From NCBI GenBank assembly GCA_027014125.1, contig JALWEI010000038.1:1-64000 (forward strand): a stretch of DNA of 64,000 nucleotides. Direction: 5' to 3'. Below, piece after piece: positions 14,377 through 47,058 of this stretch. Made by a program: the position numbers and the translations under genes. Each line of letters opens with the position of its first letter. Position 1 is the first letter of the stretch. A model generated the notes under the pieces. The model was not told the DNA's origin, searched no databases, and saw nothing but the letters and a program-made list of their open reading frames with translations. This DNA comes from Acidilobaceae archaeon. GTDB taxonomy: Archaea > Thermoproteota > Thermoprotei_A > Sulfolobales > Acidilobaceae.

Positions 14377-15074
14377 GACTAGTACTTGTTGGCACAGAGG
14401 GCGCGATGAACCTGGGAGTAGCAGCAAGGCTAGCCAGAAACTTCGAGGTGGACGAGCTATACATAGTCTCGCCGAAGACCAGCGTGGAGGAGGCAATGGA
14501 GTACAGCGCCCGTGGGGCAGAGGTCCTGGCAAGGGCCAGGATCGTGGAGACCCTAGAGGAGGCACTAGAGGGGGCATCACTGTCAATATGCACAACAGCG
14601 ATAGCAAGGGAGAGGGATGTACTCCGCAACCCCGTGCCGCCCGAGAGGGCGGCGGAGATAGCAGTATCATCCCAGGGCACCGTAGCCCTCGTCTTCGGGA
14701 GGGAGAGCGTCGGCCTAACAAGGAGCGAGATAGAGCAGTGCAGCCTTCTATCCACCATACCAGCAAACCCGGAGTACCCAACGCTCAACCTGGCAACATC
14801 GATAGCGATATACCTCTACGAGATCTACAAGGGTAGAGGCAAGAAGATACAGCTAGACCCGCCAGACGAGAGGCTACTAGGCCTCATAGAAAAGTACACC
14901 AGGGCACTAGTATCGGCGGTAGTAGAGGATACTAAGAGGAGGAACGATATAGTGACAGCCGTCAAGAGGATAGCAGCCAAGTCAGGGTCAAGAAGGGAAG
15001 TAGAACACCTACTCTACCTACTATCAAAAGCCTGTAGAAGAATACCGGGATGCAGCCAGGATAAACCCGGTTAA
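14364..15074 (+). CDS. trmJ: SPOUT-class tRNA 2'-O-methyltransferase (TrmJ-like)
   Basis: This 236-residue SpoU/TrmH-fold enzyme fits archaeal TrmJ, which makes Cm32 in tRNA. Motif 1 is LVGTEGAMNLGVAARLARNF, motif 2 ALVFGRESVGLTRSEIEQC and motif 3 IPANPEYPTLNLATSIAIYLYE. A C-terminal helical region (to about 236) replaces the N-terminal RNA-binding domain of other SpoU enzymes. The start is TTG 14364 with GGGAGGGGG about 10 nt upstream. It ends the DUF655-ksgA-prmC-trmJ run. Confidence 0.88.
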   Translation: MDRLRLVLVGTEGAMNLGVAARLARNFEVDELYIVSPKTSVEEAMEYSARGAEVLARARIVETLEEALEGASLSICTTAIARERDVLRNPVPPERAAEIAVSSQGTVALVFGRESVGLTRSEIEQCSLLSTIPANPEYPTLNLATSIAIYLYEIYKGRGKKIQLDPPDERLLGLIEKYTRALVSAVVEDTKRRNDIVTAVKRIAAKSGSRREVEHLLYLLSKACRRIPGCSQDKPG

Positions 15075-43597: not shown

Positions 43598-43627
43598 CCA
43601 TGGGGATAACAGCGGGGTGTAGGGCCC

Positions 43628-44482
43628 TTAAAGCTACTGAGGAGGATAGCAGAGGAGACCCTGGGGCCGGAGAAGGCCAGGCTAGCTTGGTCCAGGATAG
43701 ACATAGTCGGGGATATAGCAGTAATCAAGGAGCCTATCCACGGCGGCCTAGATAGGGGGGACCTGGAGAGGCTAGCCAAAGCCCTGCTCAGGGAAGTGCC
43801 GTACATACGCTCGGTGTGGGCAGCCTCAACCCCAGTCAGGGGCGAGTACAAGCTGAGGACCTTCACCCATCTAGCAGGGGAGGAGAGGAGCTGGACGATA
43901 TACAAGGAGCACGGGTGCAGGTTCAAGGTCGACATAACAAAGGTATTCATCACCCCGAGGCTGAACAACGAGCACATAAGGGTAGCTAGACAGGTCAGGC
44001 CAGGAGAGGTCGTAGTCAACATGTTCGCCGGCGCAGGCCTATTCTCGATAATAATAGCATGCAAGTCGAAGCCCCGCAAGGTCTACAGCATCGACATAAA
44101 CGAGCACGCCTACAAGCTTATGATAGAGAACGCGAGGCTAAACAGGGTAGAAGACATAGTAGAACCAATCCACGGCGACGCGGCCAGAGTGGTAGAGGAG
44201 AGGCTACAGCAGGTAGCAGACAGGGTACTAATGCCCCTGCCAGACCTAGCACTACAATACCTACCACACGCGCTCAAAGCCCTAAAACCCCAAGGAGGCG
44301 TGATCCACATCTACCTCCACATACACACCCCAAAGGGGGTAAACCCACTAGAGGAGGCATGGAGGAAGGCAAAGACACGCCTACCCCCAGGCTCTAGGCT
44401 ACTACAAGCCCGCCGGGTCAGGCCAGTGGGCCCCCGCACACTACAGGTAGTCCTAGACGTCGAGGTGAGACATAGTGGCTAG
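43628..44482 (+). CDS. Trm5-type tRNA (guanine-N1) methyltransferase with no canonical start codon
   Basis: Trm5 makes m1G37 and, in archaea, starts the wyosine pathway. Visible motifs are SRIDIVGDIAVIKEP (N-terminal domain), VRGEYKLRTFTHLAGEE, GCRFKVDITKVFITPRLNNE, the SAM motif VVNMFAGAGLFSIIIA, and RVLMPLPDLALQYL (usual MNLP). The frame is open to a TAA at 43607, with no ATG, GTG or TTG before GTG 43796, which would delete the conserved N-terminal domain. TTA 43628 is preceded by GGGGTG with 8-nt spacing and gives LKLLRRIAEETLG; CTG 43637 or 43661 are alternatives. It overlaps taw3 by 8 nt, so an operon is likely. Confidence 0.82.
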   Translation, partial: LKLLRRIAEETLGPEKARLAWSRIDIVGDIAVIKEPIHGGLDRGDLERLAKALLREVPYIRSVWAASTPVRGEYKLRTFTHLAGEERSWTIYKEHGCRFKVDITKVFITPRLNNEHIRVARQVRPGEVVVNMFAGAGLFSIIIACKSKPRKVYSIDINEHAYKLMIENARLNRVEDIVEPIHGDAARVVEERLQQVADRVLMPLPDLALQYLPHALKALKPQGGVIHIYLHIHTPKGVNPLEEAWRKAKTRLPPGSRLLQARRVRPVGPRTLQVVLDVEVRHSG

Positions 44483-45077: not shown

Positions 45078-46020
45078 ATGCATACTCCCCCAGCAGACTC
45101 CCACGACACCTGCATAAACCCATCTTCTCAAGAGCCCTACAATTATAGGGTGAAAACCTCGAAGCCTCCTCATACAGGACGGAAGCCACCAGCGGCGCCA
45201 GCCCCGGAGGCACCAAGCCACTCTTAGACAGAACCTCCTCTAGAACCCTGCTCCCAGCCCCTATCCTAGCCATGAACGTCGACAGCAAGTAGACCTCCTC
45301 ATCCCTAAGCCTCTCGCCTGCCCGGGCCCTAGCAAGCATCGATTTAATACAGCTAGGAAGCGCCTCCTCCACCAGCCCCCTAGGCTCCCTAGCCCCCTCA
45401 GCCAGCGACTTGGCTTCCTCCTCCAGATCCTCCAGGCCCTCCGGGATCAACTCGCGGACCCTACCAGCGAGCTCCAGAAGCCTCCTCCTCGCGGTCCCCG
45501 TGATCATCAGGATCAGCAGCCTCCTATCCAGGTACACCCTGCCTCCCAGCATGAACAAGCTGGATACACTCTCAACCTCTGCATTCTCAAGGACGTCGGT
45601 GAAAGGAGCCGATAGGTCTAGCCTCCTATAATACACCCTGCCCCGGGAGACGAGCCAGGGGATAGAGACAGGGCTCCCCCGCTCTACCCTCAAACCCAGG
45701 CCCCGGGCCACGCTGATAAGGTCCTCGACATCAGCCTCCTCAAGGAGCCTAGAGGCATCATACACCTCAGCCTCAACCAGCCTTGAAAGGGCTAGCTTAG
45801 ACGAGGCTGCACCCGCCAAGGCTAGGAGCAGGGATGCAACCTCGTACTCAAACCCCGGCGCCTCCCCCAGCTCGCCGCCAGCAAGCCTAGCCCTTAGCCT
45901 GGCCTTAGCTAGGCTCCGGGCGTCATCGTCTAATGTAAATATCTTCAGGGGGTTCCCGTAGCCGGTCGCCCTCCTGAGGTACTCTAGAGGATCTGGCACG
46001 AGGGCTGGGTGCCTAACCAC
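45052..46020 (-). CDS. priL: DNA primase large subunit PriL
   Basis: This 322-residue protein is the non-catalytic primase subunit. The four iron-sulphur cysteines are visible in LPSCIKSML, a later FSPYNCRALEKMGLCRC, with the two last close together. The N-terminal region is helical with LSAPFTDVLENAEVESVSSL, typical of the family. The start is GTG 46020, with GGAGG 9 nt upstream; GTG 46026 is an alternative. The frame opens to 46098 inside rpp30. It overlaps rpp30 by 8 nt and the convergent taw3 gene by 26 nt. The catalytic subunit PriS is not in the window. Confidence 0.88.
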   Translation of the reverse strand: MVRHPALVPDPLEYLRRATGYGNPLKIFTLDDDARSLAKARLRARLAGGELGEAPGFEYEVASLLLALAGAASSKLALSRLVEAEVYDASRLLEEADVEDLISVARGLGLRVERGSPVSIPWLVSRGRVYYRRLDLSAPFTDVLENAEVESVSSLFMLGGRVYLDRRLLILMITGTARRRLLELAGRVRELIPEGLEDLEEEAKSLAEGAREPRGLVEEALPSCIKSMLARARAGERLRDEEVYLLSTFMARIGAGSRVLEEVLSKSGLVPPGLAPLVASVLYEEASRFSPYNCRALEKMGLCRCRGSLLGEYASNLRRVRG

Positions 46021-46627
46021 TACCACCAACCTCCATAAGCAGTGAGCGGGGCGTGTTTGATATCCATGATAAGCCCAGCTCGTGGGGTATACCTGCAAGC
46101 GATGCCAGGCCCTCTATGTGGCGAGGGTGCCAGACATCCCACCTAGTCTCGGAGTCGGAGACGAGGACAACGTCTATACCATAGGCAAAGGCCCTCCTCA
46201 GGGACACGGTGAACCACCTCCACGACCCTACCCCGCCCCTGGACAGGCTTGCCAGGCTCAGCTCTATCGCCCCGCCGCCCCTGGAGCGGAGCAGCCTGGC
46301 GGTACTCCGGTCTACTATCCTCTGCATCCCTGGCCTCACCCTTATCACCCGCACGCTCCTCATTATAGCAGCCTTCCTGGCAGCCTCTAGGCTAGTGGGC
46401 TCCACGACGACAAGCCCCCTGCCCCTTATCCTGGCCAGGTCCCGAGCCGTGTCTGCAACCACGTGTACCCTGGGGATAACCTCTATCCCGTACCTTGCCG
46501 CCACACTCTTGAGCCTACCAACCTCTCCCTCGGGGGCCCCCACGGCCTTATAGCCCATCCTCTTGAGGGTCCTGAACGTTGCCTCTTCCTCCCCCCTTAT
46601 GGGGGCTACCGAGAGGTCGACGAACGT
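46013..46627 (-). CDS. rnp3: RNase P protein component 3 (Rpp30) with ACG as probable start
   Basis: This 204-residue TIM-barrel protein supports the RNase P RNA in tRNA 5' processing. The N-terminal FVDLSVAPIRGEEEA and TFRTLKRMGYKAVG match Rpp30, as do RVHVVADTARDLARI, RGGGAIELSLASL (usual EI) and VLVSDSETRWDVWHPRHIEGL near the end. The conserved N-terminus is preceded in frame by ACG 46627 and then by a TGA at 46636. No ATG, GTG or TTG occurs before ATG 46558, which would delete the first beta-strand. AAAGGGTGAT ends 5-6 nt before ACG, so ACG initiation is likely. It overlaps the upstream PF01877 gene by 22 nt. Confidence 0.87.
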   Translation of the reverse strand, partial: TFVDLSVAPIRGEEEATFRTLKRMGYKAVGAPEGEVGRLKSVAARYGIEVIPRVHVVADTARDLARIRGRGLVVVEPTSLEAARKAAIMRSVRVIRVRPGMQRIVDRSTARLLRSRGGGAIELSLASLSRGGVGSWRWFTVSLRRAFAYGIDVVLVSDSETRWDVWHPRHIEGLASLAGIPHELGLSWISNTPRSLLMEVGGSG

Positions 46628-47058
46628 TGTGTATCACCCTTTAGCATCTCCCTGTACTCCTCAACGGCCCTCCTCCTACCACCAGTATATCCTATCTCCA
46701 CTTTTATCACGTCATCAGACTCATAGAGGATCACCCTTCCATGTAGGGCCTCCTGCTTGCTCAACCTTATGTGGAGGGTGCCCGACCTGTCAACCCTCTC
46801 CTCCAGGCTGGAGGCTACCTGGCTCCTATCCAGGCTGCTCATCTTGGATATGATCTCTTGGGCCACCCTCCTAGCAGCTTGGCCCCGTAGCTTGAATGTG
46901 TAAACCTTTATCGGGTTCCCATAGTGGCCCTCGTACTCCTCAACCTCTACCTCAGCCTCTTCGATATGGTCCAGGGGGGCAACGTTCCTCAGGGCCTCCA
47001 AGACCTTAGCCTCATCCTCGGTTGCATGCACGTATACCCTAACCACGAGGCTCTTCAC
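46606..47058 (-). CDS. PF01877 (DUF54) RNA-binding protein
   Basis: This 150-residue protein belongs to the archaeal RNA-binding family once called exosome-associated or DUF54. It is recognised from VVRVYVHATEDEAKVLEAL at the N-terminus, EGHYGNPIKVYTFKLRG in the middle and GTLHIRLSKQEALHGRVIL with ESDDVIKVEI. It is thought to fold like ribosomal L5-type domains; its RNA target is unknown. GTG 47058 is chosen because it opens right at the domain, although the frame is open to 47097. The adjacency with rpp30 and priL is shared with other archaea. Confidence 0.87.
   Translation of the reverse strand: MKSLVVRVYVHATEDEAKVLEALRNVAPLDHIEEAEVEVEEYEGHYGNPIKVYTFKLRGQAARRVAQEIISKMSSLDRSQVASSLEERVDRSGTLHIRLSKQEALHGRVILYESDDVIKVEIGYTGGRRRAVEEYREMLKGDTQRSSTSR

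Follow-up and report, generated by a model that had tools for sequence, protein, structure and literature searches.

Where does translation of the essential gene for the RNase P subunit p30 (Rpp30) begin, when its reading frame offers no canonical start codon ahead of the expected first strand of the protein? The question is raised by a locus of a heat-loving Acidilobaceae archaeon (NCBI GenBank assembly GCA_027014125.1, contig JALWEI010000038.1), of which we analyzed a stretch of 64,000 nucleotides, positions 1 to 64,000, referred to here as the window. Taken from a candidate ACG start, the gene occupies positions 46013..46627 of the minus strand (204 codons plus the stop) and is the only Rpp30 copy in the genome. 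Its product matched PF01876 at 35.4 bits, with a cut-off of 35, and had no match in NCBIfam. Three genes follow one another on the minus strand, each overlapping the next: an RNA-binding protein of family PF01877 (46606..47064), the last 22 nt or so of which overlap the Rpp30 start; Rpp30 itself; and a DNA primase large subunit-like protein (PF04104; 45052..46020), which overlaps the Rpp30 end. The PF01877 gene presumably starts at GTG 47064, a place where the related genome G002 has ATG.

Read on the minus strand, the frame of Rpp30 is TGA(46636-46634) TAC ACA ACG(46627-46625) TTC GTC GAC CTC TCG GTA GCC CCC ATA AGG..., and the peptide from ACG onward is FVDLSVAPIRGEEEA. Any start farther upstream is barred because the TGA (46634..46636) is in frame, and between TGA 46636 and ATG 46558 the frame holds no ATG, GTG, or TTG; that ATG (46556..46558, minus strand), the first canonical codon, falls at residue 24. 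A preliminary description of the sequence had given the positions of the TGA, the ACG, and the ATG, had noted the absence of the three canonical codons, and had seen in ACG 46627 the only candidate start. A second reading of the frame found every coordinate that it checked to be correct and agreed on both points.

A hexamer and codon-pair coding model, trained on ~730 kb of the window's genome (G000; the window and 40 other stretches), placed the beginning of Rpp30 coding sequence at 46624, the codon directly after ACG, and found 13-14 bits of coding signal between ACG 46627 and ATG 46558. The proposed start codon (46625..46627, minus strand) lies exactly 5 nt downstream of a Shine-Dalgarno core, GGTGAT (46633..46638, minus strand), a 6-nt match with a duplex energy of -10.0 kcal/mol; the preliminary description had estimated the spacing at about 5 nt. 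This core pairs with GGATCACCTC, the 16S 3' end of the family genomes G022, G015, and G023, which served as the anti-Shine-Dalgarno in place of the window's own; the 16S of G000 was looked for and not found. Among 260-262 genes of G000 with unambiguous starts (ATG 97-98, GTG 93-95, TTG 69-70), Shine-Dalgarno matches of at least 5 nt peak at spacings of 5 and 6 nt. Because only 0.075% of interior codons in G000 have a match of at least 6 nt at 5-6 nt, because the coding model gives 46624, and because GGTGATACACAACGTTC, the site around the ACG, is identical in three species, the arrangement of ACG and Shine-Dalgarno at this locus is beyond chance.

The protein that would result from an ACG start is predicted to be structurally complete. 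An AlphaFold2 model, built from an alignment of nine sequences, reached a pLDDT of 92.8 and shows the full Rpp30 barrel, in which residues 2-4 form strand 1 and residues 14-24 form helix 1. All of its best seven matches in the PDB come from archaeal Rpp30 or RNase P, with E values from 7e-9 to 9e-8, and the archaeal Rpp30 structures that it matches include 3wyz, 2czv, 1v77, and 6k0b. With ACG counted as residue 1, Asp 4 is invariant in all 14 aligned Rpp30 members, and relatives start the protein a few codons before this residue, as with TTG TAC GCC GAC in G012. Asp 4 is present in the protein only if translation begins before 46558. The earlier proposal that the sequence preceding the ATG encodes the expected first strand of Rpp30 agrees with the model, and the alignment of N-termini that it had called for puts an invariant residue upstream of ATG 46558.

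We compared four members of the genus, G000, G001, G002, and G003. Rpp30 was found in the first three, and the ACG is kept in all of them. The whole of GGTGATACACAACGTTC, including the ACG, the Shine-Dalgarno core, and the in-frame TGA, is the same in these three species, the genomes of which were separately assembled; Rpp30 protein identity to the window's sequence is 91% for G001 (56 residues compared) and 78% for G002. Between G000 and G002, 22/24 nt are identical at the site, compared with 117/156 (75%) just downstream and 110/132 just upstream, and the overlap with the PF01877 gene adds constraint on the site.

Over the family as a whole, 9 of the 43 genomes with an examinable Rpp30 N-terminus have no ATG, GTG, or TTG in the stretch from the upstream stop to the first strand. 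Besides the ACG of G000, G001, and G002, the apparent starts are ATT in G008 (6 nt after GAGGTGCT), ATC in G034 and G066 (in G034, 6 nt after GAGGTGGC), and TTA or ATA in G068, the sisters of which have ATG; G011 and G029 have no obvious start. As a control, the neighboring RNA-binding gene was examined at the same loci, and a canonical codon stood at the expected place in 34/35 of them, being absent in 1/35. The nine cases represent perhaps five separate events, and the contrast with the neighbor gene is suggestive. In G029 (L004) and G011 (L005) the Rpp30 gene reads GTG AGC GGC TTT C TAC ATA GAC, with the GTG one base out of frame and TTC standing 5 nt after a Shine-Dalgarno, and the sister genome G065 reads TTG AGC GGC GGC TAC in frame. 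In these two genomes the gene may start at TTC or ATA, or a +1 frameshift may take place at TTT C; the frameshift idea is stronger here than elsewhere, since the corresponding TTG of the sister is an in-frame start and the extra base falls in TTT C.

Sequence comparison within the genus indicates that the ACG of Rpp30 is not isolated and belongs to a conserved set of apparent non-canonical starts. In the ~730 kb of G000, 16 of 692 genes have at least 8 bits of coding signal before their first canonical codon, and most of the strongest of these carry a Shine-Dalgarno 5-6 nt before a non-canonical codon. About 9 of the 692 genes apparently start at a CTG, ATA, TTA, or ACG that follows a Shine-Dalgarno by 5-6 nt, and 6 of these, Rpp30 included, have a non-canonical start in congeners too. 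A second example lies in the window itself: a tRNA methyltransferase of the Trm5/Taw21 kind (43628..44482, plus strand) apparently starts at TTA, 6 nt after the Shine-Dalgarno-like GGGGTGTA (43614..43621, plus strand), and has 48 bits of coding signal ahead of its first GTG at 43796. The same codon is TTA in G000, G001, and G002 and TTG in G015 and G011; code table 11, which applies to bacteria and archaea, does not list TTA among its starts.

The remaining members of the set are mostly CTG starts. An aminotransferase begins CTG TTT AAC AT[AC] TAC GAG in 4/4 genus members, with ATG in G007 and GTG in G038 at that position. A 154-aa protein, for which a search of Pfam returned no match, likewise has CTG in 4/4, directly preceded by TAG in G003. 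The two genes with CTG kept in 4/4 (L102:18819-19862, minus strand, and L102:13246-13707, plus strand) share the leader GAGGTGGAGAAGG in G000. For Trm56 the start is CTG in G000 and G002, with an ATG nearby in G003, and for an MZB-type helicase it is ATA in G000, ATA in G002, and TTA in G003. CTG for an Fe-S protein, CTG for a TmcA-like protein (L097), and ATA for an M50 peptidase were seen without confirmation from a congener, none having an intact 5' end in the TmcA-like case. Where the Shine-Dalgarno was weak or another start was available, the candidate was left out of the count; examples are a TTA in L113, an ACG at L103 18506, and position 15058 of the window. The L103 candidate (minus strand), in a Cas4-like gene (GGAGGTGGATGAGGG ACG), is a possible second ACG start, with an alternative GTG 11 codons later.

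A frame test considered Shine-Dalgarno sites of at least 5 nt that lie near the beginning of coding and have no canonical codon in the vicinity, and asked in which frame CTG, ACG, or ATA/ATC/ATT followed. Such codons occurred in the gene's own frame at 10/37 sites in G000, against 3/58 out of frame (Fisher p 0.0035), and at 6/21 against 1/28 in G034 (p 0.019); the test was not significant in G011 (p 0.40) or G015 (p 0.067), and 400 kb of G015 scanned for such starts held no convincing CTG or ACG start. Several single genes of G034 were also noted. A RadA-like gene, so identified by reading its protein (C22, ~215536, plus strand), apparently lacks ATG, GTG, and TTG and has ATC 5 nt after CGGTGAG, and CTG is a candidate start at 139255 (plus strand) and before a HAD-like protein (LKVRLVTFDVDGVLV). 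A look-elsewhere cost attaches to the coding model and also to picking the best Shine-Dalgarno, so we place weight mainly on conservation between species.

The main, and only serious, rival to an ACG start is initiation at GTG 46637 (46635..46637, minus strand), which lies within the Shine-Dalgarno motif in another frame (GTG ATA CAC AAC G TTC...), followed by a programmed +1 frameshift before TTC. The GTG and the next 12 nt are invariant in the three species, and the out-of-frame GTG of G011 and G029, with its in-frame counterpart in the sister genome and a plausible slip site at TTT C, is a point in its favor. However, TTT C is plausible only in those two genomes, and the corresponding AAC G and GTT C would be poor slip sites in the genus. 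GTG 46637 also has a mere 3-nt Shine-Dalgarno match and so falls short of a Shine-Dalgarno of its own. Moreover, Trm56, the aminotransferase, and the 154-aa gene all have an out-of-frame GTG at -10 from their CTG starts. The GTG is a by-product of the Shine-Dalgarno, since any GGTG at a spacing of 5 nt puts a GTG at this distance. We consider the frameshift improbable.

Far less room is left for the other explanations. A start at ATG 46558, leaving out the first 23 residues, would use a canonical codon that is kept in G001 and G002, but that codon has no Shine-Dalgarno match at a usable distance, and the lost stretch includes the invariant Asp along with its 13-14 bits of coding signal; in the model, the barrel would be deprived of strand 1 and essentially the whole of helix 1, which makes such a start very unlikely. 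Chloroplast-like C-to-U editing of the mRNA would turn ACG into AUG and CTG into UUG, making ordinary starts of both, but the TTA and ATA starts elsewhere would need another change, and we know of no mRNA editing of this kind in archaea; we hold its probability to be very low. Much the same holds for another non-canonical start in the frame, at ACA 46630 or TAC 46633 upstream or at the later ATA: being in frame is all that speaks for these codons, neither ACA nor TAC is a near-cognate, both stand too close to the Shine-Dalgarno, and the ATA comes only after the first strand, with AGA in its place in G002. A sequencing or assembly error that hides an ATG or drops a base, the main objection foreseen in the preliminary description, might be suspected in a 47-contig draft assembly, but over GGTGATACACAACGTTC the sequence is the same at every base in genomes from three different species, each assembled separately, and as one error shared by all three is not credible, its probability is close to negligible. 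We rejected a frameshift that would fuse Rpp30 to the upstream gene: in G000 the slippery-looking A AAG GGT would lead straight into TGA 46636, and G002 does not keep it.

The preferred reading, that ACG 46627 is the translation start of Rpp30 in a genus-wide setting of near-cognate starts, is a prediction from sequence and a structural model to which we assign a probability of roughly 0.8. The coding model, the Shine-Dalgarno register, and conservation in three species make the ACG the best-supported start, as first suggested in the preliminary description. Under this model the small ribosomal subunit would be positioned by GGTGAT, a Shine-Dalgarno lying within the last part of the upstream gene, and the initiator Met-tRNA would accept ACG, one mismatch from AUG, in the P site, giving (M)FVDLSVAP.... 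Genus-wide, the near-cognate starts CTG, ACG, ATA, and TTA would be tolerated, and kept, where a good Shine-Dalgarno lies at 5-6 nt. The decoding of ACG as a start with insertion of Met, with low-level or coupled expression as its effect, is putative, and relaxed, Shine-Dalgarno-driven start selection is the likeliest reading of the non-canonical starts. The initiation factor aIF1 has been described as favoring discrimination against non-canonical starts (PMC6237735). Its loss was considered as a cause of relaxed fidelity and rejected: G000 does encode the factor, whose SUI1 core looks ordinary and revealed no cause. An unusual initiator tRNA was another candidate cause, and the DNA stretches examined contained no CAU tRNA.

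An isopropylmalate-synthase-like gene (L106:7138-8289, minus strand, with L202 and L203) has GTC, GCC, and GTT in G000, G002, and G009 exactly 6 nt after a perfect GAGGTGAT, and a TTG or ATG stands two bases upstream, out of frame. These codons, and the TTC of the G011 and G029 Rpp30 genes, are the grounds for a broader and rather doubtful idea, that in a branch of Acidilobaceae the start may be set by nothing more than a strong Shine-Dalgarno 5-6 nt away, whatever the codon, even one that is not a near-cognate.

Have comparable starts been described in other systems? Near-cognate starts in Escherichia coli include the AUU of infC and pcnB; ACG starts are known in chloroplasts, where they are usually edited to AUG, and in eukaryotes, where they are reached by scanning and not by a Shine-Dalgarno. 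The Rpp30 start resembles infC and pcnB in that a housekeeping gene would begin at a non-AUG codon one mismatch from AUG, and differs in that ACG, CTG, ATA, and TTA recur in this genus and are kept across species behind a Shine-Dalgarno, in contrast to the AUU of E. coli. It shares the use of ACG as a protein start with the plant chloroplast and eukaryotic cases; unlike those, which depend on editing and scanning, it would be placed by the Shine-Dalgarno. In measurements of all 64 codons as starts in E. coli, AUU is quoted at ~0.3% of AUG activity (Hecht 2017, via PMC10666635).

For archaea, a review gives the start codons as AUG, GUG, and UUG (PMC7531240), and a reconstruction of ancestral starts in 36 genome groups of bacteria and archaea, which makes no mention of ACG, counts 2 changes to CUG and 1 to AUU from 61,358 AUG (PMC5622118). 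Aeropyrum pernix, of the same family, shares the weak preference for AUG and the Shine-Dalgarno register of the window's genome; its mapped proteins, as quoted from the original study, start at TTG in 52%, ATG in 28%, and GTG in 20% (Yamazaki 2006, via PMC5911459), and in those figures only the three canonical codons are reported, unlike here. Ribosome profiling (Ribo-seq) of Methanosarcina mazei found CTG at 5% of unannotated small open reading frames, with ACG unmentioned (PMC11456600). That is likewise a case of non-canonical starts in an archaeon, but one of short unannotated frames, whereas the genes considered here encode conserved housekeeping proteins. The literature that we searched, with most subscription papers lying outside the search, contained no archaeal housekeeping gene said to begin at ACG.

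Archaeal starts are treated as AUG, GUG, or UUG, and gene finders depend on that rule. In one genus of the Acidilobaceae, ~1% of the genes appear to begin at CTG, ATA, TTA, or ACG, and several of these starts are retained from species to species. Should this hold, the annotated N-termini of several housekeeping proteins in the family would be wrong, and the genus would be a natural system for understanding how aIF1, initiator tRNA, and the Shine-Dalgarno share the selection of the start.
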